In this document: piece by piece, positions 3,773-21,665 of the stretch
Layout of the letters: each line of letters opens with the position of its first letter
Position numbering within the stretch: position 1 is the stretch's first letter
NCBI GenBank assembly: GCA_021776345.1
Contig: JAJFGC010000264.1
Location: 1 to 49,102, forward strand
Direction: 5' to 3'
From: Hyphococcus sp.
Lineage (GTDB): Bacteria > Pseudomonadota > Alphaproteobacteria > Caulobacterales > Parvularculaceae
DNA length: 49,102 bases
Notes under the pieces: model-generated
Told to the model about the DNA's origin: nothing
Seen by the model: only the letters and a program-made list of their open reading frames with translations
The model's database searches: none
Made by a program: the position numbers and the translations under genes

Positions 3773-5143
3773 ATGAAGTTCGAAAACATCGCAATCGTCG
3801 TGATTTTGATCAAAAGCCTTGCGGGACCGGCATTCGCCGCACAGGAAATCGTCATTCGAAATGTTCAGCTCGTTACGATGATTGAAGAAGAAAATATCGT
3901 ACTAGGCAAAGCAGTGATCGTTGAGGGCGGCGCGATCAAGGCAATCGTACGCGATGCGCCTTCCGAATTTGCCGATGACGCCATAATCATTGATGGGGGC
4001 GGAGGATATTTGACCCCTGGTCTCATCGACGCTCACGTCCACCATTACGACCCAGTCCCATATCTTAACTATATCGCTAACGGCGTGACGACTGTCATTG
4101 GGTTAGGACAGCGTGACGGTGGTGAAAGCTTCCTTGCACTTCGCAACGCGATCAATGCCGGAGATGAGATCGGACCCGGTATCTACACAACAAGCAAGAC
4201 CATCGCCAGTCACATAGACATCGAAGATCCGGATGAGGCGCGGGCTTATGTCAGGAGTCTTAAGGCGGATGGATTCGATCTGGTTAAAATTTACAACAAT
4301 ACGCCGAAACCCGTTTTTGATGCGGTCGTCGATGAAGCGCGCCGGAACGATTTGTCAGTCTTTGGTCATTTACCGCGCAATTTCCCGGTGCAATACGCGC
4401 TTAGTCACGGGCTAGATGTTGTTGCCCATGCAGAAGAATTTTATTTTGCCTATTTCGGTGGGCCGCGCGATCAACAGCTTGCCGATTTTGATGGTTCAGC
4501 CATTCCCGATCTTAGCAAAATGCAGGAAGTTATCGATCTTATGGTCGAGCATGAGGTAGCGTTGATACCTGATTTTACCTTCACTTTTGTAACCATGAAA
4601 TTTTGGGATGATGAGGACGCTGTACTTGCCGACCCGGAGATCAAGTACTGGCCAGCGATTGCATATGAATCATGGAAAGAAAACAACGGAGCGCGACGGG
4701 ACCAGATCGGAAAGAGAATGCTGCGAGACCGCATCAAATATAATTTGATGCATGAGTTGACGCGACGGGCAAGCGCGGCAGGCGTGCTGATTGTCACTGG
4801 TACGGATGCGCCCGAACGAGGCGTTATATCAGGGCGATCATTGCACAGCGAGATGCGTGAGCTCGTAAAATCGGGGCTTTCATTTGAAAAATCGCTCGCA
4901 GCGGCAACCCGAAATGGCGGCGAACTGATTAATAAATATATAGATGCAGACGCGCGGCTTGGCGTCATCGCACCTGGATATGAAGCTGATTTGATCCTCG
5001 TTGCGGATAATCCGTTGGAGGACATTCGCAACATGCAAGCGATTGAGGCGGTCATGACCGATGGCGTCTGGCACGATCGCCAGACGCTTAAAATGCTTCG
5101 CAATGATCTCGCCGCTCAGCACCAACAAGCTGCAGGAGAATAA
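3773..5143 (+). CDS. Secreted metal-dependent amidohydrolase
   Basis: The 456-residue protein has a signal peptide (residues 1-23, ending 'AGPAFAAQ') and an amidohydrolase-superfamily TIM barrel. Visible metal-site elements are 'DAHVHH' at residues 87-91, a likely carboxylated lysine in 'DLVKIYN', histidines in 'FGHLPR' and 'VAHAEEF', and the aspartate of 'GTDAPE'. The C-terminal 'GVIAPGYEADLILVADNPL' is typical of imidazolonepropionase- and prolidase-like members. Substrate cannot be told; a dipeptide or cyclic amide is plausible. Base composition looks more AT-rich than in neighbouring genes. It lies 82 bases before the BlaI-like gene on the same strand, but the BlaI operators lie after it, so it may be a separate unit. 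Confidence 0.85.
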   Translation: MKFENIAIVVILIKSLAGPAFAAQEIVIRNVQLVTMIEEENIVLGKAVIVEGGAIKAIVRDAPSEFADDAIIIDGGGGYLTPGLIDAHVHHYDPVPYLNYIANGVTTVIGLGQRDGGESFLALRNAINAGDEIGPGIYTTSKTIASHIDIEDPDEARAYVRSLKADGFDLVKIYNNTPKPVFDAVVDEARRNDLSVFGHLPRNFPVQYALSHGLDVVAHAEEFYFAYFGGPRDQQLADFDGSAIPDLSKMQEVIDLMVEHEVALIPDFTFTFVTMKFWDDEDAVLADPEIKYWPAIAYESWKENNGARRDQIGKRMLRDRIKYNLMHELTRRASAAGVLIVTGTDAPERGVISGRSLHSEMRELVKSGLSFEKSLAAATRNGGELINKYIDADARLGVIAPGYEADLILVADNPLEDIRNMQAIEAVMTDGVWHDRQTLKMLRNDLAAQHQQAAGE

Positions 5144-5184
5144 CGCCTATGACGTCTGGCGTGATAGTGTATTGACTCCATCAT

Positions 5185-5220
5185 TTACATCTGTAATTGT
5201 AAGAAAAATTACGGATGTAA
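5185..5220 (+). promoter_or_regulatory. Paired BlaI-type operator sites
   Basis: Two palindromes lie just upstream of the BlaI-like gene: TTACATCTGTAA at 5185-5196 and TTACGGATGTAA at 5209-5220, centres 24 bases apart. The first contains TACA-N2-TGTA, the half-site arrangement of BlaI/MecI operators. Together they form a larger inverted repeat with one mismatch. A TTGACT that could be a -35 element is at 5172-5177, so the first site would sit in the promoter core and the second near the ribosome-binding site of the gene at 5226. Autorepression is inferred from known bla/mec circuits. Confidence 0.7.
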
Positions 5221-5225
5221 ACATT

Positions 5226-5594
5226 ATGGCGGTCAGTGAGGCGGAAAGTGCGGTGATGGAGGCGTTATGGACCGAAAGTCCGCTTAGCGCTGATGACATT
5301 ATTGGGCGCATTGCCGATGAACATGGCTGGCGCGCCGTCACGGTAAAGACACTCCTCAACCGGTTGCTCAAGAAGCAAGCAATCAGCGCCAAGCGCGATG
5401 GTCGCCGATATCTCTATGAGCCGTTGCTGGACCGCAGCGACTATGTTCAGGCGCAGAGCCAGACCCTGATCGATCGCCTCTTTGACGGCCGGGTGGGGTC
5501 GCTGGTGACGCATTTTTCTGAAAACAAAAAATTGACCCCGCAGGATGTTGCTGATCTCAAGCGCCTGATCAAGGAGCTGGATGATGGAAGCTGA
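5226..5594 (+). CDS. BlaI/MecI-family transcriptional repressor
   Basis: This 122-residue protein has the winged-helix domain of BlaI/MecI repressors (residues 1-75, with 'AESAVMEALW' and 'AVTVKTLLNRLLKK' as opening and recognition helices) and a short C-terminal dimerisation region. BlaI-type repressors bind palindromes as dimers and are inactivated when the partner M56 membrane protease is triggered. The frame extends upstream to 5061, but that would cover both operators and the preceding gene; the ATG at 5226 gives the normal N terminus. It overlaps the M56 gene by 14 bases, so the two are very likely co-translated. Confidence 0.9.
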   Translation: MAVSEAESAVMEALWTESPLSADDIIGRIADEHGWRAVTVKTLLNRLLKKQAISAKRDGRRYLYEPLLDRSDYVQAQSQTLIDRLFDGRVGSLVTHFSENKKLTPQDVADLKRLIKELDDGS

Positions 5595-7176
5595 TATTTT
5601 AAGCGTGCTCTTGCGGATGACGATTGCGATCAGCGTTGCCGTCATAGCTGTGCTCATTTTACGTCATCCGGTTCGTTCGTGGTTGGGCGCTCGCAACGCT
5701 TATGCGTTGTGGATGATCGTGCCTCTTTCGGCAGCGGCGATATTGGCGCCGGCCCGCCGGATTGTAGAGGCGCTTCCCAACAATACTCATTCGACCATGA
5801 TGGCGGCGCCTGCTGTGTCCGCGCCTGCCGCAATACACGACTTTAATGCCGTCGCAACGCCTGCCGCTCCATTGCTAATTTATGACGCCATAAGCTGGGA
5901 GCCGGTTTTGTTCGTCGCCTGGGCTGTCGGTCTGGCCGGTGCTTTAGCTTTGTTAGTATGGCGCCAGCAACGGTTTCTGGCGCGCCTTGGCGCGCTTGAG
6001 CGATCGTTCTGTGATGGTGTTGAAGTTTATAAAGCACGGGCGGCCGACATTGGGCCGGCGCTGGTCGGGGCGCTGGCGCCACGCCTGGTTGTTCCGGCGG
6101 ATTTTGACCAGCGGTTCAACGCCAAAGAACGCGCGCTGGTGATCGCCCACGAGCATGTGCATTTGTCGCGAAGAGATGTGCAGATCAACGGCCTTGCCGC
6201 TGTCCTGGGCTGCATTTTCTGGTTCAATCCTCTCTTTGCCTTTGCCATCGTCCGAATGCGCGAGGATCAGGAAATGGCATGCGATGCAACCGTTCTCGCG
6301 CGTGAGAGTGCGGGGCGGGGCGATTATGCGCGTGCCTTGTTGAAGACACAGTTTTCATCCGGCGACATTCCGATCGGCTGCGCCTGGCCCTCGGCAGGAA
6401 GCCATCCCTTAAAGACCCGCATGACGGCGCTGGCGCAAAATAAACCGAACCGATTGCGTGAGCGTACCGGCGCCATTGCGATCGCGTGCGTGGCGCTTAT
6501 CAGCGGCGCGGCGGCCTGGAGCATGCAGCCGCCTATCGTGTCGTCAGTCGCCTTTGATGAGGCCGCGACGACGGTCTCCGCGGCTAGCTCTGCGTCGATT
6601 ACCGTCTCGAGCAACGTGGCGTCGTCTCCGCGCACCAAAGAAGCCGGGTCCAGCGCGTCTTATATCGACAGGCTCGCATCGGCGGGGCTTGTTGATCTAA
6701 CCGCCGACGAACTGATCGCGCTCAAGATTCATAATGTTGATGTTACTGCGATCAAATCTGCGCAACAGCTTGGGTTTGATCCGACCCCGGATAACCTGGT
6801 TGCGATGTCTGTCGCCAATGTGACGCCGGAGTTTGCTGCTGAGGTTCGCGCCGAGGGTTGGAATAACGTAAGCATCGAGGAGCTGATTTCGATGCGGCAT
6901 ATGGACGTTGATCCTGCCGACGGGAAAAAATTTATTGCGCTGGGGTTACAGCAGATGACCGTCCAGCAACTCATTAGCTTTGCAGCGATGGGTGTCACGG
7001 TCGATTATGTCCGTTCGCTGCAAGGCGAAGGCATTACCGAGAAAGACCCGGACGGCTATGCCCGCGCCGCCGCCATGGGCATCACGCCCGACTTTATTGC
7101 AGAAGCGCGCCGCCGCGGTTTTGACGAGCTCACGCTTGATAAGCTCGTGCGCATGAAATCCGCCGATATTTTTTAA
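5581..7176 (+). CDS. BlaR1-type M56 membrane protease with C-terminal helical repeats
   Basis: The 531-residue protein has membrane helices near residues 6-27, 39-58 and 107-127, then a zinc-protease domain with HExxH ('HEHVH', 190-194) and the downstream 'REDQEMACDA' typical of M56/BlaR1 proteases. A last membrane helix lies near 297-313. In BlaR1 the part after this helix is a penicillin-binding sensor; here it is a Ser/Ala-rich linker (320-360) and a helical repeat array (361-531) with motifs such as 'LVAMSVANVTPEFAAEVRAEG'. No SxxK sensor fold is visible. The same repeats make up the next protein. AAGGAG at 5571-5576 serves ATG codons at 5581 or 5584. Probably it senses an envelope signal and relieves repression by the upstream BlaI; the ligand is unknown. 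Confidence 0.85.
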   Translation: MMEADILSVLLRMTIAISVAVIAVLILRHPVRSWLGARNAYALWMIVPLSAAAILAPARRIVEALPNNTHSTMMAAPAVSAPAAIHDFNAVATPAAPLLIYDAISWEPVLFVAWAVGLAGALALLVWRQQRFLARLGALERSFCDGVEVYKARAADIGPALVGALAPRLVVPADFDQRFNAKERALVIAHEHVHLSRRDVQINGLAAVLGCIFWFNPLFAFAIVRMREDQEMACDATVLARESAGRGDYARALLKTQFSSGDIPIGCAWPSAGSHPLKTRMTALAQNKPNRLRERTGAIAIACVALISGAAAWSMQPPIVSSVAFDEAATTVSAASSASITVSSNVASSPRTKEAGSSASYIDRLASAGLVDLTADELIALKIHNVDVTAIKSAQQLGFDPTPDNLVAMSVANVTPEFAAEVRAEGWNNVSIEELISMRHMDVDPADGKKFIALGLQQMTVQQLISFAAMGVTVDYVRSLQGEGITEKDPDGYARAAAMGITPDFIAEARRRGFDELTLDKLVRMKSADIF

Positions 7177-8620: not shown

Positions 8621-10762
8621 TCAGAAACGGCCGCTGATCGTCAACCGTGCATTAATCGGTTCGCCTGTTGAGATATTATCGTTGCTGTGAGCATCCGGGA
8701 AGTAATTCTCATCAAGAAGATTTTCCAGATTGACCTGCAAGCGAATATCGTCATTCAAATCGTAGTAGACGGCCGCATCGACGCGTATGAAATCCGGGAC
8801 TTCCACCGAATTATCTTCTCGGACAAAAAAGCTATCCTGATAAGTTGCGCCGAGACCCAGGCCAAGCCTCTCAGAAACCTGAAAGTTATTCCAGATAGAG
8901 AACATGTTTTCAGGCGTCTGGCGGGTTCGATTTCCATTGTTGCCGCCGCCATCGACGAGTTCTACTTCGCCATCGAGATAGCTGTAGCTGGCGGTGACAA
9001 ACCACCGATCCGTGAGGCCGCCGGTTAGTTGAACTTCGAAGCCTCTCGTTTCCGATCCTTCAATTACGATCACCTGTCCCGCGTCCTCTGGATCAATTGA
9101 GGTGAAGCTTTCGCGATCTAATTCGAAGACCGCCGCTGTCAGGCTGAGATCGGGCTTGATATCCCACTTAATGCCAATTTCTGTGTTCTCGAAGAATTGC
9201 GGCCGCGTGCTTTCTGCGTCGAGATTCAAGGTAAGGAACTGATCTCCGGAGCGTGGCAAGAATGTCTCGCTATAACTGAAATAGGCCGATAGATTTTCCA
9301 TCGGCTTCAAGATCGCGCCCAGTCGCGGCGTGAACTCGTCGTCCGTACGGCTGAATTGCTCGCCACTGAAGATATCGTTCACGTCGATCTCAAACCGGTC
9401 ATAACGGACGCCGGCGACAAGCTTGAGCCAGTCTGTGACATCGATTTGGTCTTGGAAATAGACAGATGTGAATTCAACTTCCGACGCTCTATCACGCGCC
9501 GGGTCGGAGAATGAAAACGTCGGAATGACGAGCGGATCAGAAAACATAATGAACAACTGATCATCGCCATTCGCAGCGAATACGTTGTCGTTCCGCGCGT
9601 TGGCCGTTTCCTGATCGCCATATTCCGCGCCAAGCAATAATGTATGTCCAAATGGCCCCGTCGCGATTTCGCTAACCAGGTTGCCTTGAACAATCAGGTT
9701 TTCCCGGTCGGTCGTATCTTGGTAGCCTTCGAGCTCGACCTGCGGAAAGGTCCCGTTCGTTACAACAACTTCTTCGCTTGGAAAGAGGTTCTGGTACAGC
9801 TTGTCGTAATCGGCATATTGCACCGTGAAATTTCCGCGCAAAGCGTCAGTGAACGTGTGGTCGACCCGCGCCCGCACTATATGAGCTTCGAGCGTTGTAA
9901 AATTTTGATCGGGTGATCCAAAAAAAGTGTTGTCAAAGCCTTCCAACGGTATGTCGGGCCCGCCGTCCACATTTTGTGACGGGACGCCTCGATCCACGAC
10001 GCGATCGTCATTCACATACTCGTAAGAAAGAACGACTTCCGTATTCGGCGTCGCCTGGAACGCGAAGGTCGGATTAACAGCAAACCGTTCGCCGTCAAAG
10101 AAATCGCGATGGTTGTTCAACCCTTCATAATACGCATTAAGCCGAAACGCGGCGCCTTCACCAACAGCGTAGTTGACGTCTCCGGCGACATTATGGGCGC
10201 CAAAAGTGTCGACGCTGGCTGAGAACCCGGTGAATTGTTCGCCGAACTGAGGGCGTTTTGTGACGCGGTTGATCACGCCGCCGCCGCCGCCGCGGCCAAA
10301 GAGCAGCGCATTGGAGCCGCGCAGGATTTCGATCTGCTCCAGATTATAGAAAGGACGGAAATATTGAACATCATCTCTCAGGCCGTCGATAAAGAAATCG
10401 GCTGTCGTCTGGTTGCCGCGAATGATGATAGCGTCCCTGTGTCCTTCGCCCTGGCTGGTAGAAAGTCCCGGCGTGTAGCGCAGGACGTCGCCAAAATTTG
10501 TGAAGGCTTGGATGGCGATTTGTTCCTTGCCGACGATGGACAAACTTTGGGGAACGTCGATGATCGGCGTTGGCGTTTTAACCGCGTTCAACTTATCTAG
10601 CGAAAGAAACCGACCTTCGACGATAATCTCGTCTACGACGCCAGCAGCCAGCAAAACCTGACGAGCTTCAGCCGAGTTTGCGCTTTCTGCGGCATATGAT
10701 GATTGTGCGGCGGCCATCAGAGCGGCAATAGACGCCGCGCCTGCGAGGCGAATTCTAATCAC
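8621..10762 (-). CDS. TonB-dependent siderophore receptor
   Basis: The 713-residue outer-membrane protein has a signal peptide (about residues 1-24), a plug domain (about 60-170, including 'DVPQSLSIVGKEQI' and 'QIEILRGSNALLFGRGGGGG') and a 22-strand barrel ending 'NARLTISGRF' with the terminal Phe needed for barrel assembly. The pattern 'VDVPQS...R...PGL' is that of ferric-siderophore receptors of the Fiu/FpvA/CirA type, probably for hydroxamate or catecholate iron complexes; the exact ligand cannot be read. The start is GTG at 10762, preceded by GGAAGGA. Two Fur-like boxes lie 48-105 bases upstream, fitting iron repression. It is a single gene, converging on the micro-ORF transcript. Confidence 0.93.
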   Translation of the reverse strand: MIRIRLAGAASIAALMAAAQSSYAAESANSAEARQVLLAAGVVDEIIVEGRFLSLDKLNAVKTPTPIIDVPQSLSIVGKEQIAIQAFTNFGDVLRYTPGLSTSQGEGHRDAIIIRGNQTTADFFIDGLRDDVQYFRPFYNLEQIEILRGSNALLFGRGGGGGVINRVTKRPQFGEQFTGFSASVDTFGAHNVAGDVNYAVGEGAAFRLNAYYEGLNNHRDFFDGERFAVNPTFAFQATPNTEVVLSYEYVNDDRVVDRGVPSQNVDGGPDIPLEGFDNTFFGSPDQNFTTLEAHIVRARVDHTFTDALRGNFTVQYADYDKLYQNLFPSEEVVVTNGTFPQVELEGYQDTTDRENLIVQGNLVSEIATGPFGHTLLLGAEYGDQETANARNDNVFAANGDDQLFIMFSDPLVIPTFSFSDPARDRASEVEFTSVYFQDQIDVTDWLKLVAGVRYDRFEIDVNDIFSGEQFSRTDDEFTPRLGAILKPMENLSAYFSYSETFLPRSGDQFLTLNLDAESTRPQFFENTEIGIKWDIKPDLSLTAAVFELDRESFTSIDPEDAGQVIVIEGSETRGFEVQLTGGLTDRWFVTASYSYLDGEVELVDGGGNNGNRTRQTPENMFSIWNNFQVSERLGLGLGATYQDSFFVREDNSVEVPDFIRVDAAVYYDLNDDIRLQVNLENLLDENYFPDAHSNDNISTGEPINARLTISGRF

Positions 10763-11363: not shown

Positions 11364-12059
11364 ATGGCGACAATCGCACTTGTCGATGACGACGAAAATA
11401 TCCTGACTTCAGTGTCTATGGCGCTGGAGAATGAAGGCCATACGGTGAAGACCTTCGAAGATGGCGCCGCAGCATTTGAATTTATCCATGCGACGCCGCC
11501 GGACCTTGTTGTTTCAGACATCAAAATGCCGACCATGGACGGCATGGAACTGTTACGCCGCATCCGGCAGAACTCGGATCTGCCGTTGATCTTTTTGACA
11601 TCCAAAGACGAAGAAATTGACGAAGTCCTTGGCCTCACCATGGGCGCCGATGATTATGTCAAGAAACCGTTTTCGCAGCGCTTGCTGCTGGAGCGTGTGA
11701 AGTCGCTTTTGCGGCGGGCGCAGGCCGATGAAAAACCATCCGCTGAGGAAGAAAAGAAAATTCTCCGCCGCGGTAATCTGACCCTCGATCCCATGCGCCA
11801 TTCATGTTTGTGGAAAGAGCGGCAAGTTGTGCTGACCGTAACCGAGTTTTTGATCCTGCATTCCCTGGCGCAGCGCCCGGGCTTCGTGAAAAGCCGCGAT
11901 CAACTGATGGATGCCGCGTATGATGATCAGGTTTATGTCGATGATCGCACAATCGACAGCCACATTAAACGCGTCCGAAAAAAGTTTCGCGTCGTGGATA
12001 AGGAATTCGATTCCATCGAAACGCTATACGGCGTTGGGTATAAATATAAGGAAGACTAG
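11364..12059 (+). CDS. chvI: Response regulator ChvI
   Basis: The 231-residue OmpR-type regulator has a receiver domain (residues 1-118) with acidic pocket 'DDDEN', phosphoacceptor Asp52 in 'VVSDIKMP' and Lys in 'KKPF', and a winged-helix DNA-binding domain (about 135-231) ending '[12 protein letters not shown]'. '[22 protein letters not shown]' and the adjacent ChvG kinase identify it as the alphaproteobacterial envelope/acid-stress regulator ChvI (ExoR/ChvG/ChvI in rhizobia). chvG starts 6 bases after its stop, so the two are co-transcribed. Confidence 0.93.
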
Positions 12060-12065
12060 TCAGGG

Positions 12066-13787
12066 ATGACCGAAGAGGGTGCCAAGGTGCGCAAACGCCG
12101 GGCGCGCGTCGCGTTTTCGCGTCTGACGGTCACGATCGTCCTCGCCAATCTTATTGGACTGGTCATTCTGCTGATCGGTTCGTTTGCACTGACGCAATAT
12201 CGCGATGGTTTGATCCAGGCAAAACTCGAAGGCGTACGCGCGCAGGCGCAAATCATCGCGGATGTTTTGGCGCAAGTCGCAATTGATGAATCCTCCTGCC
12301 AGCCCGTTGATGAGGCCGATATTGCAAGCCTTGGCGCCGAAGCGACATTGTGTTCGCTCGCGCTCAGCCAAACCGATGTTCGCGAGGTCTTTAATCGGGT
12401 ATGGGATAGCTTTGAAGGACGGGTGCGGATTTTCAATGCGCCACAGACCTTTGACGATCCTCCGGTTTCCAGCGCCGATGTCTTGCTTATTGAAGATGTC
12501 GTCTTGCGCGAAGATAAAATTGTCGCCGAGACATTGCCGCCGTTGGAACAAGATAGCGCTGTGCCGTCGTTTAGTCCGGAGAAAATAACCTACACGGTAT
12601 TGCGTTATTTTTCCAGAAACTACCGCGCGCAGGCGGGGCGCCGAACGATTGAAGCGGAGCTGAACGAAGCGTTATCATCGTCGCCTTTTGCGGAAGACCG
12701 TGGCGCGGCCTCTGTGCGGCTGAATGAGGAGGGCGAGCTTGTTGTTTCGGTAACTGTGCCGATCAGGCGTGTACAGGCAATCTATGGCATGGTGACAGCG
12801 GAAAGCGGCGGTATCGACGCGCTGGTTGAAGAGGCGCGTTTTGCCATTCTGCCATTTTTCGGATTGGGTGTTGCCGCCGCGATCCTGTCTTCGCTTTTGT
12901 TGACGGCAATGATCGCACAACCCATCCGACAGCTGGCGATTGCAGCCGATAAGGTTCGCGAAGGGATTGCCGCGGCGGGCCGCGCGCGAATTCCGGACTT
13001 CACAAGCCGTAAAGACGAAATTGGCGAATTATCCGGGTCGCTAAAATCGATGACGGCGGCGATTTACGCTCGGATCGATGCGATTGAAAGTTTTGCCGCT
13101 GACGTTGCGCATGAGCTGAAAAATCCGCTGACGTCAATTCGCAGTGCGTCCGAAACGCTGGAATTTGCAAAGACGCCTGAGCAGCAGGCGAAGCTGATGA
13201 GCGTCATCCAAAAAGACGTTGCGCGCATGGATCGTCTGATTACGGATATTTCTAATGCATCGAGGCTTGATGCAGAGCTCGCCCGCGAGATCCGGGAAGC
13301 AGTCGATTTGACAAGATTGATCGGCGATATCGTTGCTATGTATGCAGACGCAGCGAAAGAGGACGCCCCGCATATTACCTACACCGACCCCATCCAGGCG
13401 GTTTATATTCTTGGCAACCCGTCTGCATTGGGGCAGGTCATCCGCAACCTTATCGATAATGCGCGCTCCTTTAGCCCGCCTGGTGGGGAAGTGCGGGTGA
13501 CACTCGAAGCACCGACCCAGAGGGAAAATATCGTTCGCATTCTGGTCGAAGATGACGGCCCGGGAATCCCACCCGATAACCTGGAGTCCATCTTTAAGCG
13601 GTTCTACACAAAGCGGCCCAAAGGCGCCGCTTTTGGCAATAATTCGGGTCTTGGCCTTGCCATCTCACGCCAGATCATAAACTCTCATGGCGGCCGGATA
13701 TTTGTTGAAAACCGCCTGAAATATGCAAGTGATACAGATGGCGAGCGGCTGGGCGCCCGATTCGTCATTGAGCTTCCTGCGGATTGA
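12066..13787 (+). CDS. chvG: Sensor histidine kinase ChvG
   Basis: The 573-residue inner-membrane kinase has one transmembrane helix at about 22-43, a large periplasmic sensor region (44-258), a second helix at about 260-283, a HAMP-like linker, the H box 'FAADVAHELKNPLTS' with His349, the N box 'NLIDNARSF', and ATP-binding boxes 'EDDGPGIPP' and 'GLGLAISRQI'. It phosphorylates ChvI in response to envelope stress. The normal next gene in many relatives, hprK, is absent: only 74 noncoding bases separate chvG from the EIIA gene. Confidence 0.93.
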   Translation: MTEEGAKVRKRRARVAFSRLTVTIVLANLIGLVILLIGSFALTQYRDGLIQAKLEGVRAQAQIIADVLAQVAIDESSCQPVDEADIASLGAEATLCSLALSQTDVREVFNRVWDSFEGRVRIFNAPQTFDDPPVSSADVLLIEDVVLREDKIVAETLPPLEQDSAVPSFSPEKITYTVLRYFSRNYRAQAGRRTIEAELNEALSSSPFAEDRGAASVRLNEEGELVVSVTVPIRRVQAIYGMVTAESGGIDALVEEARFAILPFFGLGVAAAILSSLLLTAMIAQPIRQLAIAADKVREGIAAAGRARIPDFTSRKDEIGELSGSLKSMTAAIYARIDAIESFAADVAHELKNPLTSIRSASETLEFAKTPEQQAKLMSVIQKDVARMDRLITDISNASRLDAELAREIREAVDLTRLIGDIVAMYADAAKEDAPHITYTDPIQAVYILGNPSALGQVIRNLIDNARSFSPPGGEVRVTLEAPTQRENIVRILVEDDGPGIPPDNLESIFKRFYTKRPKGAAFGNNSGLGLAISRQIINSHGGRIFVENRLKYASDTDGERLGARFVIELPAD

Positions 13788-13861
13788 ACAGCGCTTTTTA
13801 GTGGACATATGTAATTTTTCCAGCACACGATAAGCGGTGTAGATTTGATTCGAGATTACAG

Positions 13862-14272
13862 ATGATCGGTTTAGTTGTTGTCACCCATGGACGTCTTGCG
13901 GAAGAGTTTCTTTCCGCGGCGGAGCATGTCGTCGGCCCCCAGGAAAAGGTGAAAGCCGTTTCCATTGGCCCCGACGATGACATGGAAAAACGACGTCAGG
14001 ATATTCTCGACGCCGCCAAAGAAGTTGATTGCGGGGAAGGCGTTATTATTTTGACGGACATGTTCGGCGGTACGCCATCCAATCTTGCGATCGCGGTTAT
14101 GGAAAAAGCCAATGCGGAAGTAGTGGCTGGGGTCAACCTGCCGATGTTAATCAAGCTAGCGACGGCGCGGGCGGATGGGGATTTGAATGAGGCGGTCAAA
14201 GCGGCCCACGAAGCCGGACGCAAATATATTAATGTCGCTTCCTGGGTTCTTTCGGGTGATACAACCGAATAA
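13862..14272 (+). CDS. PTS mannose-family EIIA component
   Basis: The 136-residue cytoplasmic protein is an EIIA-Man domain: start 'MIGLVVVTHGRLAEEF' with the phospho-accepting His9, and the conserved 'LTDMFGGTPSNLA' loop. In alphaproteobacteria it acts with EI-Ntr or EI and HPr in a regulatory phosphorelay rather than sugar import, and no EIIB/C/D permease genes are seen here. HPr starts 12 bases after its stop. It lies directly downstream of chvG, where hprK is often found first. Confidence 0.93.
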   Translation: MIGLVVVTHGRLAEEFLSAAEHVVGPQEKVKAVSIGPDDDMEKRRQDILDAAKEVDCGEGVIILTDMFGGTPSNLAIAVMEKANAEVVAGVNLPMLIKLATARADGDLNEAVKAAHEAGRKYINVASWVLSGDTTE

Positions 14273-14284
14273 AGGCGATATACG

Positions 14285-14566
14285 GTGAGCGGCGAAACTG
14301 TAACTGCAACCGTCAAAATCGGCAATAAGCTTGGCTTGCATATCCGCCCTTCGCGACAGTTTTCCTCTCTAGCAAATTCCTGGGATGCGACCGTGACTGT
14401 TCGCAACCAGGAGCGAACGGCCGCAGCTGATTCTCAACTCGACCTTCTGATGCTGTTAGCCAGTTACGGCACGCCGCTTGAAATATCGGCAACGGGACCG
14501 CAAGCCGCAGAGGCTGTGGCTGCGCTCGTTAAGTTGATTGAAGACCGATTTGGCGAGAGTGAATAA
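14285..14566 (+). CDS. HPr phosphocarrier protein
   Basis: The 93-residue protein is a PTS HPr. The active-site motif reads 'NKLGLHIRPS' with His19 as phospho-acceptor and Arg21 retained. Exactly 31 residues later is Ser50 ('ADSQLDLLMLLASYG'), matching the spacing of His15 and Ser46 in classical HPr, the target of HPr kinase. The start is GTG at 14285. It takes phosphate from EI and passes it to the adjacent EIIA. The retained regulatory Ser suggests an HprK is encoded elsewhere or was lost recently. Confidence 0.92.
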   Translation: MSGETVTATVKIGNKLGLHIRPSRQFSSLANSWDATVTVRNQERTAAADSQLDLLMLLASYGTPLEISATGPQAAEAVAALVKLIEDRFGESE

Positions 14567-14570
14567 GTCT

Positions 14571-15692
14571 TTATGCAGAAGGCTCTGGCGTTGTCGTTCC
14601 GATCGTCACAGACTGCCCATCACGAAGTCTTTCACCGCCTCGGATAACAACCTTATCTCCGGGCGAAACCTCGCCGATGACTTCGATGAACTGACCTTCG
14701 GCGGTGCCCAGCTCGACGTCGATGCGCTTGGCGGTATTGTCTTCTCCGATGACAAAAACGCTGACCCGATCCGCCCGCAATATCAGTGCGTCGCGGGGGA
14801 CAGCGGTGACAGTTTTCGCCACCGCCGCCGGCAGACGGACGCGAACAGCCGAGCCAATATACCAATCAGCTTCCGGTAATTCGAGGCGCAGCTCAAGCAT
14901 GCGGGAGAGGGCGTCGCCAACCGGCACAATCGCCCGGATGGTCGCGTCAGCACTTTGTGCGCCGCTGGTAACTTTGATGGTGTCACCAGCTGCGATGTTG
15001 CGCGCAAGATTTGCCGGCGCGCGTGCAGTGACTTCCAGCCGGCGCGTATCAACCAGGCGGATAAGCTGCGTGCCGGGATTTGCATATTCGCCAACTTGCG
15101 TTTCCTGACTAACGACACGACCGGCAAACGGCGCCTTCACCTCGGTCCGCGCGAGATTAATCCCAGCGCGGCGCAACGCTACTTCAGCCTGTTTGACCGC
15201 TTGCAGCGCTTCGTCGCGGTTAGAACGCATTTCGTCAAGCGAGGCCTCAGACTCGCCGGCGTCTTCGCCAAGGCCAACAAATCTTTTATAAAAACTGTCA
15301 AGATAGTTCGCGCGCGCGGTCAGTCGGTTGACCTCCGCTGCTGTGTTGTCGCGCGTCAGTCGCGCATCGGCAGGATCAATGCGGGCGATCACGGCGTCTT
15401 TTTCAACCTCGGCGCCAACCTCCGCCACCCATTCGATCTTGCCCGAAGTCGCCGCGGCGACAAGACTGTCTCGCGTCGAGACGACGGAACCCGGCGTTTC
15501 CGAATGCGGCGCGAGGGAGCGTTGCTCCGCTTCGGCAATGGTGACCGGCGCTGGCGGCGGACCGTTTTGCGCTTCTTCGCCGCCTGTTTCTGCGGCGTCC
15601 GCTCCGACATTGCTGCCGTAGAAAAAGGCGACGCTGCCGGCAACGACAAGAAACGCCCCAGCTGCGCCGGCGATTTGGAGTTTACGGTTCAT
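14571..15692 (-). CDS. RND efflux periplasmic adaptor (HlyD/AcrA family)
   Basis: The 373-residue protein has an N-terminal membrane anchor or signal (residues 8-26), an acidic proline-rich linker, a lipoyl/barrel-sandwich domain split by an alpha-helical hairpin (about 110-175, 'LTRDNTAAEVNRLTARANYL'), the rejoining 'TEVKAPFAGRVVSQETQVGEY', a beta-barrel domain and a membrane-proximal domain ending 'GGERLRDGQSVTIG'. This is the membrane-fusion protein order. It links the RND permease, encoded 17 bases upstream, to an outer-membrane channel that is not encoded here. Substrate is unknown. Confidence 0.92.
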   Translation of the reverse strand: MNRKLQIAGAAGAFLVVAGSVAFFYGSNVGADAAETGGEEAQNGPPPAPVTIAEAEQRSLAPHSETPGSVVSTRDSLVAAATSGKIEWVAEVGAEVEKDAVIARIDPADARLTRDNTAAEVNRLTARANYLDSFYKRFVGLGEDAGESEASLDEMRSNRDEALQAVKQAEVALRRAGINLARTEVKAPFAGRVVSQETQVGEYANPGTQLIRLVDTRRLEVTARAPANLARNIAAGDTIKVTSGAQSADATIRAIVPVGDALSRMLELRLELPEADWYIGSAVRVRLPAAVAKTVTAVPRDALILRADRVSVFVIGEDNTAKRIDVELGTAEGQFIEVIGEVSPGDKVVIRGGERLRDGQSVTIGTTTPEPSA

Positions 15693-15709: not shown

Positions 15710-18700
15710 TTATTCTGCGGGGACAGGCTCAATGCCGCGTGGCGCACGTGCCAGCGCCGGCGCTGCGCCTAATTGCAGGAGCGCGGGCAAGAGAAGCAGG
15801 GTGAAGATTGTTGAGACAGCCATGCCGCCAACGATCACCGTCGCAAGTCCGCGGTAGATCAAACTACCGGCGCCGGGCGACAGCACTAGCGGCAACATGC
15901 CCATCAGCGATGTTGATGTAGACATGAAAATTGGCCGTATACGAAGCAAGAGTGCTTCATGCACAGCCTCAGGGCGGGATTTTCCGGCCTGCTCAGAGGC
16001 GCGGGTCTGCGCCACGAGCAGGATGGCGTTATTGACAACTAGGCCAAGAAGGATGATGAAGCCGATCATACCCAGAAGATCGAGAGGGAGGGGGTTAATC
16101 AGATCAAATCCGCGAATGGCAAGAATGCCGCCGACGGTCGCCATCGGCAGGGTGATGATAACAAGCGCGGAATCTTTCACGGATTTGAATAGCGCCGCCA
16201 TTATTAAAAAGAGAATGGCAATCGCGAGGAAAAAATTGCCGCCAAGGTTTTTGATAGCCCGCGCGAGGCTGTCTGCATCGCCGCCCCACTTGAGCGAGGC
16301 GCCTTGCGGCAGGGCCTCATAGAGTCGTTCCTGAGCATTTTCCTTCAGGGTTTCGACAGCTGGGCCAAGAGCCATTCCATCAGGCGCGGAAATACCGAGT
16401 GAAATCGTCCGACGTCCGTCTATGCGCCGAATGCGTTGCGGACCGACGCCGCGGCCGACCGTGACCAGTTCGCCGAGTGGAACAACAGCGCCAGAAGGAG
16501 TGGCGATCGGCGCCGTTTCTAAAAACTCCGGTTCGGTCCATTCTTTTGCACGCAAGAAGATGTCGATGCGTCCATCCTGATGAAAGAACTCACCAAGCCA
16601 TTGGCCATCGCCAAGCGCCCGCACGGCCCTGGCGACGCTATCGCGCGTCATCCCAACCTCTGCGATGCGGCGATCATTCGGGACCAGCCGCAACTCCGGC
16701 GTCACGATTTGTGGATCTGGGTTTGGCCAGACTTGCGCGCCGGGCAGCGCCTCCTGAATGATGTCTATGGCGGCTGGCACTGATGCGCCAAGCGCTTCAA
16801 AGTCTGCAGCTTGCAATTCCAGGTTGATGGAGCCGGCGGCGCCCCAATTACCAAAAAGATTTCCCTGACTTGCAAAGACGCGCGTATCGGGAAAACCCGC
16901 GAGAATTTCATCATTGACGATATCGACCATCTCTTCGACGCGAGATTGGTCGAGTACTCGGATGCCGGTATTGCCGCCCCATTCTCCGGAATAGAGATAG
17001 TAATTTTTCAGCGCCGGTTCCTTTTCGCCGCTCATATACGGCTCCAGACGTTCGACGACGACCTCGGCAAACTCTTCGCGGATCATGTCGGCGCTGGCGC
17101 CCGAAGGAAATCCGATAAACGCATCGACGGCGTCGCGTTTGACTTCCGGCAGATAGTTAAGTTGCGGCCAGAGGAGAAAACCAACGGCGATCGGCACGAC
17201 GGTAAGGGCGCCGACAATTGAAAGACGGCGCGGATTGGTTGAGGTCGCCCGCATGATCAATTCCGCAAGCCGCGAGACGAAAGCGGGTCGTTTTGCTGCT
17301 TTGGAATTCGGCTCTTGTTTCATGAATAGATGCGCACCGGTCGGCAATAAAGTGACCGCGACAACGAGACTGAAGGAAACAGCGATTGCAATAGTGAGGG
17401 CGAGGTCGGCAAAGAGTTGCCCCTCAACATCTTCGAAAAACATGATCGGAATGAAGATCGCAATCGTCGTCACGGTTGAAGCAAAAAGCGCACCAAAGAC
17501 TTGACCGACCGCTGCTTCCGCCGCCTGAAACGAGGAACGTCCTTCCTCGCGCAGTCGCACAAAGTTTTCGAGTACGACAATTGCTGCATCGAGCACCATG
17601 CCGGTGGCAAAGGCGAGGCCTGCCAGTGAAATCACGTTTATCGTTCGCCCGAAGAGGCTGAGAGCGACAATGGTCGCCATCAGGCAGATAGGGATAGCCG
17701 CCGCGATGATCAGCGTTGGCACAGCGCGACGTAAGAACAGCCACAGCGCGCCAACCGCGAGGATGATGCCGATCATCAAATTGTTGGTGAGAAGGGAGAT
17801 TGCGCGCTTGATAAAGACGGATGGGTCAAAGCTCTTGTGAATAGCGTACCCCATCTCGGCGAGCGGACCAGCATTCAGCTCATCAAGAACGTCCGTCAGC
17901 GCATCAATTGCTTCCAGCGTATTAGCGCCGGGCTCGCGCACAACCCGCATGCCGATCGCCGGATTGCCGTTTTGGTATACAACGCCGCGGCGGCTATCAG
18001 CGGCCACTTTGACCTCTGCGATATCGCCAAGGGTAACCGGGGCGCCATCGCGCCATGCCAGGATCGTTTCGTTGAGTTGGTCCGCGGTAAACCGGCCTTC
18101 AAAACGCATGGTGTAGTTGCGCCGGCCGACTTCGATGGAGCCGCCGGTGACGTCCGATGAGCGGTTTACGTTTTGGCTGATTTCATCAAGCGTAATACCA
18201 AGTTGTGCAGCAAGGAAGGGATCAAACTCGATACTGACGATCTGTTCGCCGTCGTCGGAATTGATGTCAACGCCGCCGACGCCGGGCACTGCTTCCAGAT
18301 CCGGGGCGATGCGTTGCTCGGCAAAGTCGCTCAATTTTACATTTTTGTTGTCATTGCCGGGGAGGCGCTGAAGAAACAGGAAGATCAGCGTGTCGCCGGA
18401 ATCGCCGCCGCCGCTATTAATGCGCGGCCTATCGGCTTCCGCTGGCAGGCCGCGCACGCGCTGCAGCCTTGCATTTACCTCTGTGAAAGCCTGATCCATA
18501 TCGGTGCCGAGAGCGAATTCGACAGAGATCCAGCCGCCGCCCGCATTGGACCAGGATTGCAAGGTCGTCATGCCTGGTATGCCGCGCAACTCGCGTTCGA
18601 TTGGCTCGACAATTTCACTTTCTACTTCGCGCGGCGATGATGCGCGCCATCCCGTCCAGATGCCAATTTGTGGGCGCTCAATTGCCGGGAATAATTGCAC

Positions 18701-18799
18701 TGGCAGTCGGATAATTGACATGGCGCCGAGCAAAGTGATCAGCGCCAGAACAACACCAGCGGCAGCAGGGTTTTTTAGGCAAAGCCGCGTCAGACCCAT
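15710..18799 (-). CDS. RND multidrug efflux permease (HAE1/AcrB-like)
   Basis: The 1029-residue inner-membrane protein has AcrB-family organisation: a first helix (about 12-30), a large periplasmic loop, helices 2-6 (about 335-490), a second loop, and helices 8-12 (about 850-1010). Proton-relay positions differ from AcrB: the helix-4 motif is 'GMVLDAAIVVLEN', with one Asp where AcrB has two, and the helix-10 motif is 'GLVVNNAILLV', with Asn where AcrB has the key Lys. It is the first gene of a two-gene operon with the adaptor. It is probably a proton-driven exporter of amphiphilic compounds. Confidence 0.92.
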   Translation of the reverse strand: MGLTRLCLKNPAAAGVVLALITLLGAMSIIRLPVQLFPAIERPQIGIWTGWRASSPREVESEIVEPIERELRGIPGMTTLQSWSNAGGGWISVEFALGTDMDQAFTEVNARLQRVRGLPAEADRPRINSGGGDSGDTLIFLFLQRLPGNDNKNVKLSDFAEQRIAPDLEAVPGVGGVDINSDDGEQIVSIEFDPFLAAQLGITLDEISQNVNRSSDVTGGSIEVGRRNYTMRFEGRFTADQLNETILAWRDGAPVTLGDIAEVKVAADSRRGVVYQNGNPAIGMRVVREPGANTLEAIDALTDVLDELNAGPLAEMGYAIHKSFDPSVFIKRAISLLTNNLMIGIILAVGALWLFLRRAVPTLIIAAAIPICLMATIVALSLFGRTINVISLAGLAFATGMVLDAAIVVLENFVRLREEGRSSFQAAEAAVGQVFGALFASTVTTIAIFIPIMFFEDVEGQLFADLALTIAIAVSFSLVVAVTLLPTGAHLFMKQEPNSKAAKRPAFVSRLAELIMRATSTNPRRLSIVGALTVVPIAVGFLLWPQLNYLPEVKRDAVDAFIGFPSGASADMIREEFAEVVVERLEPYMSGEKEPALKNYYLYSGEWGGNTGIRVLDQSRVEEMVDIVNDEILAGFPDTRVFASQGNLFGNWGAAGSINLELQAADFEALGASVPAAIDIIQEALPGAQVWPNPDPQIVTPELRLVPNDRRIAEVGMTRDSVARAVRALGDGQWLGEFFHQDGRIDIFLRAKEWTEPEFLETAPIATPSGAVVPLGELVTVGRGVGPQRIRRIDGRRTISLGISAPDGMALGPAVETLKENAQERLYEALPQGASLKWGGDADSLARAIKNLGGNFFLAIAILFLIMAALFKSVKDSALVIITLPMATVGGILAIRGFDLINPLPLDLLGMIGFIILLGLVVNNAILLVAQTRASEQAGKSRPEAVHEALLLRIRPIFMSTSTSLMGMLPLVLSPGAGSLIYRGLATVIVGGMAVSTIFTLLLLPALLQLGAAPALARAPRGIEPVPAE

Positions 18800-18936
18800 G
18801 AAACATTCCTCCCAGCATCAGGCAGACTCATGCCAGTTTAGCATCGCGCATTTATGGGCGAGGCGCATCCGAATTGCGGTGAGTTGGTTTTTAGATGCGG
18901 CGAACGGCGTTTTGCAAAACGGTTAAAACAAGCGGT

Positions 18937-21108
18937 TTACTTGTTCTTGCCTTTGCGTTTTTCACGCTCGAGTTCCGCGCGCATACGATCGAGTTCTGCG
19001 CGCTCTCTTTTCAAATCGCGTTCCGCTTCACGTAACGCTTCTTCGCGCAGATCCAACATCTCTATTTGATGCATGCGCGCTTCTTCAAGCGCTTCCTCGC
19101 GCTCGCGTTCAGACTCTTCCCGATCATAACGTCTTTCGTACTCGCGTTCGCGCTTTGCAGTTTCGCGCTCACGCTCAGCGTGCTTTAGCTCGCGTTTTAC
19201 TTCTTTCATCGCGCGCTTGACTTCGCGTTGTGCTTCTTCCTGTACGCGCCTCACCTCCGCCCGGTCTTCGTCGGACCATTTGAGCATCTCGCCCATGGAG
19301 GCAATTTCCGGCATTTCCAATTGGAAGTCGTTCAGTTCTCCAAAATCGAAATTCATTTCGTTCATTTGCTCGGTTATTTCTTCAATGATTTCTGCGTCGT
19401 CGAAATCAAATTCGAAATCATTCATATCGACAAACGCGTCGAAATTATTAAATTGTTCGCGCAGTTGTTTGTCGAGTTTGCGAAACTTGCCGGCCAGCCG
19501 TTTTTCCAACTTTTCGTCAAATTCTGGATCGAGACCGGCGTCTTCTTCAGGATGATAATCGGATCTGATGGTCGGCGGCATCGGCGCGATGGCGATAGCC
19601 GGCGCAGGCGTAATCGTTATCGCGCGCGCCGGTTTCATCATTGGGCGCGGCGCCGGCATCGGCTCGGCGGCAATTACTGGCGCCGGATCAATGTGAATGC
19701 CATCCTGAATGACTTCGAAATGAAGATGCGGGCCCGAAGATTTACCGGTGGAGCCGACGGCGCCGATTGCTTTGCCGGCTTTTACGTAGTCGCCTTTTTT
19801 AACGACATATCTGTCAAGATGCGCATAGCGGGTGATGAGGCCGTGACCATGGTCAATAACAACGACATTCCCCCAGGCTGGTTGACCTTTATATCTATTC
19901 GTTGCGGCGACGATCTTTCCGTCTCCAGCAGCGCGCACGGTGGTTCCTTTTGGCGCTCTTAGGTCGATCCCTTCATGGGTTTGGGGACGTTCAGCGCCGA
20001 GCGCTTTGCTCTTCTTTCCAAAGCCAAATGTCACTTCGCCTTCAACTGGCGACTGTGGGAGAGCTTCACCAGGCGGCTTCGGCGCCACAGCGAGGGCGGC
20101 TTGGGCAAAAGCAAGACCAGCGGCGGCGACAATGCTCAGTGTCATGCCGATCTTGTTGGGCACGCTCAACATTGGCGATCCGCCAGCCCTTGATAAAATC
20201 GCATCCAGACGTTCGCGGCGCGAGCGCTTGTCGAATGGCGTGAATGAGGGGACCAGCGCATGATCAGCCCTTGGTGAGCCTACGGCAAACCTCAGCCCCT
20301 CAACGAAACATTGTGCATATTGTCGCCGACTCGCGCCGCTCGTAATAACCAGCGCATCTGCCGCCTGCTCGGCTGCAAGATTTGCCCGTGCGGCGATGCG
20401 ATGAACAAAAGGGTTAAACCAGAAGACCGCCTTGACGGCGGTAATAAAAGCAAACAGCCACGTATCCCCACGTTTAATATGCGCCATCTCATGAGCGCCC
20501 ATCAAAATCGCATCATTGACCGAGACCCGATCAAGCAGGCTCATCGGTAATAAAATAACGGGGCGGAAAAACCCGTGCACACAGACGGAGGACACTGCAT
20601 AGGTAAACGCATAACGCGGCGGCCGTTTAATGCCGATACGCGTGCGCCATTCTTCGAAACCAGCTTCAAGGCGCGGCTCATCAAGGTCGTAAGAAAACCC
20701 AACCCGGTATGAAAACCATACCATGCGGACGATGCCGAGCATCAAAAACAAGATAAACCCGTAAAAATAAAGCCCGGCCGCCGTGGTCAAAATATCGGCA
20801 AGGCCCATCGCCGGTTCAGCGGTGACGCGCGGCGTAGATATCGCGACGGGTGCGTAATCGGTTATTGCCGTTGGCGCCCCCATTGGCGGCAGGGGCGCTG
20901 GGTTGCGCAAAGATAAACCAAGCGCCGCGGCGACTGGCGCAAACAACGCTGGCAGAGCGGCGATCAGCAATGCCGATGGCCACAGCTTGTCAGCCAATGC
21001 GGGCGTATCTTGTTTGTTAAGCTTTGACGAGATGAGAAAAACAATCGGCGCCCAGATCATCGAGGCGAGGAGGCAATAAAAGAAAGGCTCTATAATCACT
21101 TGCATCAC
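18937..21108 (-). CDS. BlaR1-type M56 membrane protease fused to an M23 (LytM) peptidase domain
   Basis: The 723-residue protein has membrane helices near 8-26, 44-64 and 105-131, an M56 domain with HExxH ('HEMAH', 206-210), a helix near 320-340, then an M23 endopeptidase domain (about 355-475) with every zinc-site residue visible: 'HEGID' (His378, Asp382), 'RYAHLDR' (His430) and 'GPHLHFEV' (His461, His463). A Pro/Ala linker follows (480-515), then about 190 residues of charged helix rich in Glu and Arg, likely a coiled coil or single helix. No penicillin-binding sensor exists. The start is GTG at 21108 or, equally likely, the ATG at 21105 that overlaps the repressor stop as TGATG. It is probably a cell-wall-sensing partner of the BlaI encoded just upstream. 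Confidence 0.88.
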   Translation of the reverse strand: MMQVIIEPFFYCLLASMIWAPIVFLISSKLNKQDTPALADKLWPSALLIAALPALFAPVAAALGLSLRNPAPLPPMGAPTAITDYAPVAISTPRVTAEPAMGLADILTTAAGLYFYGFILFLMLGIVRMVWFSYRVGFSYDLDEPRLEAGFEEWRTRIGIKRPPRYAFTYAVSSVCVHGFFRPVILLPMSLLDRVSVNDAILMGAHEMAHIKRGDTWLFAFITAVKAVFWFNPFVHRIAARANLAAEQAADALVITSGASRRQYAQCFVEGLRFAVGSPRADHALVPSFTPFDKRSRRERLDAILSRAGGSPMLSVPNKIGMTLSIVAAAGLAFAQAALAVAPKPPGEALPQSPVEGEVTFGFGKKSKALGAERPQTHEGIDLRAPKGTTVRAAGDGKIVAATNRYKGQPAWGNVVVIDHGHGLITRYAHLDRYVVKKGDYVKAGKAIGAVGSTGKSSGPHLHFEVIQDGIHIDPAPVIAAEPMPAPRPMMKPARAITITPAPAIAIAPMPPTIRSDYHPEEDAGLDPEFDEKLEKRLAGKFRKLDKQLREQFNNFDAFVDMNDFEFDFDDAEIIEEITEQMNEMNFDFGELNDFQLEMPEIASMGEMLKWSDEDRAEVRRVQEEAQREVKRAMKEVKRELKHAERERETAKREREYERRYDREESEREREEALEEARMHQIEMLDLREEALREAERDLKRERAELDRMRAELEREKRKGKNK

Positions 21109-21488
21109 TCATCCTCCCATTTGCCGAGCATCTCTTCGAGTTCTTCAAGCTCGTTGTCCGAAAGCAATTTTGAATCAGCAAAAAAAGCCGCCGCGGGCGC
21201 GCCGTCCAGTTCAAGGACGCGTTTGGAGAAATCGGCGATCATCCTGCCGAGTAGGGCGACCTTGCCAACTTCTGCCTCATAAATATTGACACCGTCGATT
21301 GGGTTTTTCGAAACAAGCCCCTTGTCGGCCATTCGCTCCAACACCGTTCTAACGGTCGAATAGGACCAGCTGAAGACATCAGCGATTTCGGTATGAATCT
21401 CGCGGGCGCTCATTTCCTTGTCGCGCCACAAGAGCTTCAAGATTGCCAGTTCCGGTTTTGTCGGATTGTCGGAAGTTCGCTCGCCCAT
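21105..21488 (-). CDS. BlaI/MecI-family transcriptional repressor (second copy)
   Basis: The 127-residue protein has the BlaI winged helix (residues about 8-75; 'PELAILKLLWRDKEMSARE' and 'SYSTVRTVLERMADKG') and an acidic C-terminal dimerisation helix. The frame extends to a GTG at 21524, but the ATG at 21488 gives the family-typical N terminus and length. Its stop overlaps the start of the M56-M23 gene, so the pair is translationally coupled. Operator-like palindromes lie immediately upstream. It differs in sequence from the BlaI at 5226, so the two are not a recent duplication. Confidence 0.9.
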   Translation of the reverse strand: MGERTSDNPTKPELAILKLLWRDKEMSAREIHTEIADVFSWSYSTVRTVLERMADKGLVSKNPIDGVNIYEAEVGKVALLGRMIADFSKRVLELDGAPAAAFFADSKLLSDNELEELEEMLGKWEDE

Positions 21489-21534
21489 GGGATCATCCAG
21501 CCTTATTAAGCATCGGGGCGTCACAACCCCGTGT

Positions 21535-21572
21535 TACAGGTGTCACAACCCTATACTAATGCGACACCTGTA
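21535..21572 (-). promoter_or_regulatory. Inverted operator pair upstream of the second BlaI-like gene
   Basis: TACAGGTGTC (21535-21544) and GACACCTGTA (21563-21572) are exact reverse complements, centres 28 bases apart. Each is a TACA-N2-TGTA BlaI/MecI half-site pair with one base changed. They lie 46-84 bases upstream of the ATG at 21488. The inner bases (GG/CC) differ from the site at 5185, suggesting that each repressor reads its own operator. Autoregulation is inferred. Confidence 0.65.
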
Positions 21573-21665
21573 GCAAGATTTTACTCTAATAATAGGCTGT
21601 CTGCGGCGAACCGACCGAAATATGCGATATTCGGGGATGCATGCCTCAAACGCCCGTTCCGGTGA

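Follow-up and report, generated by a model that had tools for sequence, protein, structure and literature searches.

The stretch analyzed here (hereafter, the window) comprises 49,102 nucleotides (nt) of the marine bacterium Hyphococcus sp. (Parvularculaceae), i.e., positions 1 to 49,102 of the forward strand of contig JAJFGC010000264.1, from an assembly of 3.6 Mb in 293 contigs (GCA_021776345.1). On its minus strand lies a gene for a BlaI-type repressor, followed by a gene for a 723-amino-acid (aa) protein that joins an M56 (BlaR1-type) domain to an M23/LytM endopeptidase domain and a long charged helix. The features of this locus are as follows.

21560..21575, minus strand: candidate operator 1, TGYKACANNTGTMRCA, overlapping a conserved -35-like element, TTGC[TG]ACA
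21532..21547, minus strand: candidate operator 2, a copy of TGYKACANNTGTMRCA beyond a -10-like element, 28 bp away from operator 1
21105..21488, minus strand: BlaI-type repressor gene (127 aa; Pfam Penicillinase_R, 77.9 bits)
18937..21108, minus strand: gene of the M56–M23 fusion, the putative receptor (723 aa, single open reading frame (ORF))
20299..21069, minus strand: M56 (BlaR1-type) domain, residues 14–270 (Pfam 94.3 bits, cut-off 31)
20191..20265, minus strand: residues 282–306 with an autocleavage-like loop, PSFTPFDKRSRR (mean conservation 0.89)
19684..19980, minus strand: M23/LytM domain, residues 377–475 (Pfam 113.4 bits, cut-off 28.7)
18940..19272, minus strand: long charged helix, residues 613–723 (AlphaFold model)

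An earlier interpretation made from the sequence alone (the sequence-only reading) had proposed that one protein holds both domains, and both were found above their Pfam cut-offs in the single 723-aa ORF. The residues it named are all in place, i.e., HEMAH at 206–210, His378, Asp382, His430, His461, and His463. The overlap it described between the two genes is also there: the 3' end of blaI overlaps the start of the fusion gene by 4 nt if translation begins at the GTG, or by 1 nt if it begins at the ATG one codon on, which would give a protein of 722 aa.

Of 24 same-genus genomes (source genome counted), 20 have the fusion as a full match within a single open frame, which rules out the assembly or gene-prediction error that the sequence-only reading had allowed for. 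It was not found in the other four (G006, G007, G010, and G014), which are 84–86% complete. As a chvG match was likewise not found in G006, G007, and G010, and chvG was split across contig ends in G014, these absences may reflect incompleteness, and the four were dropped as a natural fusion-less control. Related loci were also taken from named records (n = 23), which overlap the same-genus set so that the two counts are not independent. They are assigned to Marinicaulis, Parvularcula, other Parvularculaceae, or Alphaproteobacteria with no finer assignment, and all are labelled as metagenome-assembled genomes (MAGs) with the single exception of the isolate Marinicaulis flavus SY-3-19. Four more distant M56–M23 proteins, with blaI just upstream and without the long tail, occur in another family of the same order (L056–L059). 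A profile search of 385 genomes of the class, in which at most four candidates per genome were scored, gave proteins with both domains only in the source genome (G000) and G024 among the matches listed; the remaining listed matches were M23 proteins with at most the last membrane segment. No plasmid record spanned 80% of fusion residues 1–503. In the class as a whole the fusion seems to be rare, and within the genus it seems stable. NCBI names such proteins 'M23/M56 family metallopeptidase'.

The M56 half retains the residues expected of a BlaR1-type protease. H206, E207, H210, E247, and D251 (the HEXXH and ExxxD motifs) are invariant in all 20 orthologues, as are S288 and F289. Family-mean hydropathy showed four strong hydrophobic segments (centres 10–23, 45–61, 110–128, and 320–337), which is the BlaR1 pattern, and weaker peaks at 180–183 and 225–226. 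The M23 domain follows the fourth segment and is predicted to be periplasmic from hydropathy, the AlphaFold model, and fold alignment; the cytoplasmic placement that would have spoken against the sequence-only reading is thus not what the topology predicts. The model, built from 21 sequences, had a mean predicted local distance difference test score (pLDDT) of 68.2 and a predicted template modelling score (pTM) of 0.48, with pLDDT per ten-residue block of 74–95 over residues 121–280 and 70–88 over 381–480. Its residues 7–298 aligned with BlaR1 (8exs) over 255 residues (Z 17.1, 5.5 Å, 14% identity). In the phmmer alignment with BlaR1, gap-free over residues 178–257 at an offset of 5, H206, H210, and E247 fall on H201, H205, and E242, which are given as the BlaR1 zinc ligands, and D251 falls on D246.

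BlaR1 is described as cleaving itself between S283 and F284 (PMC9834060), and Ser288-Phe289 of the fusion sits at the same spacing, 82 residues past the first zinc His in both proteins. Among 12 regions compared, residues 282–306 rank first in conservation (0.89 vs 0.76 for the M56 core), and P287–F292 within the loop are identical in all 20 orthologues. Spacing and fold alignment make Ser288-Phe289 a putative autocleavage-like site. No transpeptidase was detected in the C-terminal part of the fusion, where Pfam gives M23 instead, and the NCBIfam model blaR1_generic scored 48.4 bits, below its cut-off of 400. The testable parts of the protein agree with BlaR1 except at the sensor, which lacks the penicillin-binding domain that defines such receptors.

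In M23 enzymes the zinc is held by the His and Asp of an H(x)nD motif and by the second His of HxH, according to a review of the family (PMC9662197). These ligands are here His378, Asp382, and His463, while His461 and His430 correspond to water-activating histidines; all five residues that the sequence-only reading assigned to the zinc site are present, but only three of them are ligands. H378, D382, H463, and H461 are invariant in the 20 orthologues. The M23 domain and the M56 core are conserved to the same degree (mean top-residue frequency 0.75 vs 0.76; mean pairwise identity 0.66 in both), and the M23 domain is therefore under selection. The M23 part of the model matched M23/LytM folds with Z up to 18.3, including the LytM domain of EnvC (Z 18.3 and 18.1), and its best sequence matches in the PDB were named peptidoglycan peptidases, e.g., 6jmx and ShyA.

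The C-terminal end was expected to form a helix of about 190 residues. It does contain a long charged helix, but the single helix in the model covers only about 110 residues (613–722), and residues 481–527 and 555–612 have pLDDT <50. A canonical coiled coil was rejected: over the last 45 residues, heptad periodicity was pronounced in just part of the 20 sequences and not significant in the source protein (p 0.15), and the tail is therefore called a charged helix. In one related locus (L130:6001-8145) the charged tail gave a weak match to Pfam Metal_resist (23.5 bits vs a cut-off of 29.2).

The adjoining BlaI aligns without gaps with MecI and the BlaI of Staphylococcus aureus. Its F103 corresponds to the P1' Phe102 and does not vary among the 14 sequences aligned, which include two from the order-level family. 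BlaI/MecI-type operators are of the TACA-N2-TGTA type, like the two candidate operators in front of this gene. They were scored in 19 loci (L037, which begins inside blaI, was left out). Operator 1 overlaps the blaI promoter with ≤1 mismatch in all 19 (exact in 18, one mismatch in L053), and the ACA-N2-TGT core of operator 2 follows 28 bp on in 18. Exact operators within 260 nt of blaI were also found in four further loci (L108, L118, L129, and L130), and one or two TACA-N2-TGTA boxes stand upstream of blaI in each of L056–L059; none was seen upstream of blaI at L060, a paralogue in G007. Scanning the window at ≤2 mismatches returned only the two operators, against 1.16 expected, which is unremarkable by count alone. 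Of the 28 genus genomes, 26 contain 1–4 exact sites each and G007 and G014 none, and the reversed pattern gave 0–1. These boxes are candidate BlaI sites, and their position at the blaI promoter supports the BlaI linkage that the sequence-only reading had drawn from gene overlap.

Given these features, we consider the two genes to encode a BlaR1–BlaI-type pair in which the penicillin-binding sensor is replaced by the M23/LytM endopeptidase domain and the long charged helix (probability about 0.58). Like BlaR1–BlaI and MecR1–MecI of S. aureus and Bacillus licheniformis, the pair has the M56 gluzincin residues, four predicted membrane segments, a Ser-Phe at the same spacing, and an adjacent BlaI with the P1' Phe; unlike BlaR1 and MecR1, its sensor would be M23 plus charged helix rather than a penicillin-binding domain. 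This reading draws on domains, conserved sites, operator-like boxes, and gene order taken from sequence, and on a topology predicted from sequence and model. From it we infer a course of wall binding, proteolysis, signalling, and derepression. The M23 domain would engage peptidoglycan peptides and relay its state through the fourth membrane segment to M56 on the cytoplasmic side. This protease would then cut itself at Ser288-Phe289 and cut BlaI before Phe103, BlaI would be released from the TGYKACANNTGTMRCA operators, and expression of blaI and the receptor gene would rise, probably together with that of a tonB gene and a TonB-dependent receptor gene. BlaI of B. licheniformis is reported to be released by a peptidoglycan dipeptide as well (PMC3305447), so wall fragments and the BlaI family are linked elsewhere. 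A more ambitious version, in which the enzyme itself is the receptor, M23 reading cross-links by binding or cutting them and M56 passing this on as BlaI cleavage without any drug, with a regulon of export and TonB-dependent uptake under its control, is offered tentatively and as a whole is rather doubtful.

Two genes recurrently have an intergenic operator-like site upstream: one encodes a TonB protein (six of seven tested carry TonB_C), the other a TonB-dependent receptor. Of the 28 genus genomes, 22 yielded the tonB orthologue, and all 22 loci have a site with ≤1 mismatch within 350 nt upstream, vs none of eight tonB paralogues (best 3–5 mismatches). Seven of the 22 had suggested the gene, which leaves the other 15 (all exactly one mismatch) as the fairer test; gene starts were set from locus extent, and site positions may be off, above all in L207. 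The TonB-dependent receptor was found in 6 of 24 genomes searched (E up to 1e-100), and all six loci have a site, with gene starts not fixed. It was chosen from the copies in G000 and G008, and the fairer test is the other four loci (one mismatch each). The background for the receptor sites, 240,755 bases including pieces of the fusion locus, held five exact and no one-mismatch sites. The fusion-linked BlaI may act on the sites before both genes.

Not every operator match was accepted as a target: L079 and L196 have theirs within a MoxR-like ORF, and L072 and L195 within an ORF for a response regulator (names from sequence). In several genomes (L199–L220), the tonB gene with its BlaI-type box adjoins an adenosylhomocysteinase-like ORF, and in G004 and G421 (L188 and L194) an operator-like site lies between divergent ORFs for a probable lipoprotein and a deacetylase-like protein (names again from sequence). 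The contig of the window also carries a TonB-dependent siderophore receptor (8621-10762, minus strand) and a second BlaI–M56 pair (5061-7176, plus strand), whose M56 protein of 531 aa has no Pfam match in its C-terminal part.

The annotated neighbours of the fusion are a resistance–nodulation–division (RND) pump, an alpha/beta hydrolase, and phosphotransferase system (PTS) and two-component proteins, a setting that also differs from BlaR1–BlaI and MecR1–MecI. The pump, the tonB and receptor sites, and the ChvG-like neighbours had no part in the sequence-only reading. The flanking features are:

21602..21610, minus strand: TTCRYCGCA element upstream of the blaI promoter, a possible site of a second regulator
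18877..18904, minus strand: TTCRYCGCA-N12-YTCRYCG direct repeat with a 21-bp period, upstream of the RND gene
15710..18799, minus strand: RND efflux permease (ACR_tran), 1029 aa, starting 137 nt past the fusion stop
14571..15692, minus strand: RND periplasmic adaptor, 3' of the permease on the same strand
11364..14566, plus strand: OmpR-type response regulator, ChvG-like kinase, EIIA-man, and HPr, context outside the claimed receptor

The pump is present in 18 of the 24 same-genus genomes, all 18 of which carry the fusion, and it adjoins the fusion in every scorable locus but that of G019 (17 of 18; the loci of G001 and G018 end at contig ends and stand outside this count). A pump with 49% identity occurs in G031, of the same order, in which the fusion was not found. 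A TTCRYCGCA-N12-YTCRTCG-like element between fusion and pump scored 12–16 of 16 in 18 loci, with a mean of 14.9 vs 9.8 in shuffled sequence (highest of 200 sets, 10.4); the pattern was derived from the same sequences and the scan always returns a best site, so this comparison is not independent. Genome-wide, matches to the 21-bp repeat numbered 1 vs 2 for the reversed pattern in the source genome, where the signal is weak, and 17 vs 5 across eight genomes. All 19 loci scored at blaI also have a TTCRYCGCA element (8 or 9 of 9 positions), placed -34 to -37 or -57 to -58 relative to the -35 box of blaI; exact YTCRYCGCA is absent within 260 nt upstream of blaI in L108, L114, and L130. As such elements precede both blaI and the pump, a second regulator may act on both units. 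The RND pump probably has its own promoter, which shares the direct-repeat element with that of blaI.

ChvI was considered as the owner of TTCRYCGCA and set aside: it is suggested by neighbourhood only, and the motif is unlike the TTGC-N3-GCAA given for Caulobacter ChvI (PMC9731502). A TTCRYCGCA-type repeat was not found upstream of chvI in the window. The TGA-N8-TGA motif described for CenR (PMC9275681) also differs from the repeat here. The ChvG-like kinase scored 519 bits against a curated cut-off of 740, and the response regulator is named ChvI from its position only. ChvGI is described as a wall-stress system of Alphaproteobacteria (PMC9731502, PMC9731437); its homologues are different proteins from the fusion and only neighbour its locus.

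Several observations weigh against the sensing role proposed for the fusion, and above all against simple sensing by cutting. Residue 430, about 30 residues before HxH, is His in 15 of the 20 orthologues and Gln in 5, and Gln also occupies this position in L056–L059. In one MAG locus (L130, RI_591), BlaI, M56, the loop, the tail, and the RND pump are all retained, but the zinc site of M23 is gone: the M23 profile is matched only at positions 14–72 of 96, without the ligand motifs. The G007 paralogue at L060 likewise has a degenerate M23 adjoining a BlaI. The intact catalytic set is not kept everywhere. The sequence-only reading is partly supported: the position of M23 at the BlaR1 sensor, its predicted periplasmic side, the retained M56 signalling residues, and the BlaI linkage speak for it, whereas binding or cutting of the wall by M23 is a putative role. 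On the structural side, pLDDT falls to 52 at residues 281–290, the autocleavage-like loop, and to 52–58 at 361–380, which together with the pTM makes domain and loop placement uncertain; the sequence match of the M56 part to BlaR1 in the PDB is weak (phmmer E 0.24 over residues 178–257), and past residue 257 the Ser-Phe equivalence rests on equal spacing and fold alignment. On the regulatory side, the second operator copy is absent in L038, and in L114 the operator (exact) lies about 420 nt upstream of blaI, with none within 260 nt. At the seventh base, many of the tonB sites depart from the blaI operators; G006, G007, and G010, in which no fusion was found, have tonB sites too, and other BlaI–M56 pairs exist in the source genome; another BlaI may therefore bind the tonB sites. 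Finally, the pump is missing beside the fusion in G019 and the named record L108, and the gap between fusion and pump (122–232 nt) held no BlaI site at ≤1 mismatch in 17 of 17 loci, with one BlaI-like site at two mismatches in each of the L043 and L048 gaps.

The M23 domain could instead be an effector: BlaI would control how much of this membrane-anchored peptidoglycan endopeptidase is present, and M56 cleavage its activity or release. The invariant zinc ligands and HxH, the best matches to peptidoglycan peptidases (6jmx, ShyA), and an M23 conservation equal to that of M56 would all suit such a role, which nevertheless appears unlikely given the His430-to-Gln exchange in 5 of 20, the retention of the L130 locus although its zinc site is gone, and the location of M23 in the sensor position of BlaR1. 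An equally improbable explanation is that toxic compounds or the load on the pump, and not peptidoglycan, are what the receptor senses, with M23 mainly anchoring it to the wall. The RND pump and adaptor following the fusion in 17 of 18 scorable loci, the fusion in all 18 pump-bearing same-genus genomes, and the operator-like sites before tonB and the TonB-dependent receptor gene point that way, whereas the fusion–BlaI pair without a pump in L108 and G019, the 49% identical pump of G031 without a detected fusion, the lack of a close BlaI site before the pump, and the invariant zinc ligands, which an anchor would not require, point away from it. Least probable is that M23 has no catalytic role and, as a LytM module in the manner of EnvC, docks a partner such as an amidase or divisome protein and signals the contact to M56: EnvC is among the top fold matches and M23 is degenerate in L130 and L060, but the zinc ligands are invariant in 20 of 20 same-genus orthologues, unlike those of EnvC-type regulators as PMC9662197 describes them.

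The M23 fold and zinc residues of the fusion are those of M23/LytM proteins such as ShyA, Csd3, DipM, and EnvC, from which it differs in that M23 is fused behind a BlaR1-type protease and His430 is not universal. The same review names M56 among the second catalytic domains of M23 proteins, together <1% of M23 entries, and states that a role of M56 in peptidoglycan cleavage is not demonstrated (PMC9662197). The M56–M23 proteins it lists have the same domain pair; the accessible part of that review reports no receptor, BlaI link, topology, or operator for them. A literature search, with most subscription journals outside its coverage, found no study of an M56–M23 receptor with BlaI.

BlaR1-type receptors are known for the detection of beta-lactams, and an M23 domain in the place of their sensor suggests that the M56–BlaI relay is a general output that takes different envelope sensors. 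Other M56 paralogues of the source genome carry TonB_C (L063), ankyrin repeats (L003), or an acidic-rich end without a Pfam match (L002) where the fusion has M23, as if these ends were swapped sensor parts. If the proposed BlaR1–BlaI-type pair with an M23 sensor is what these genes encode, a Gram-negative cell could read its own peptidoglycan directly, and this reading may be tied to an efflux pump and to TonB-dependent transport.

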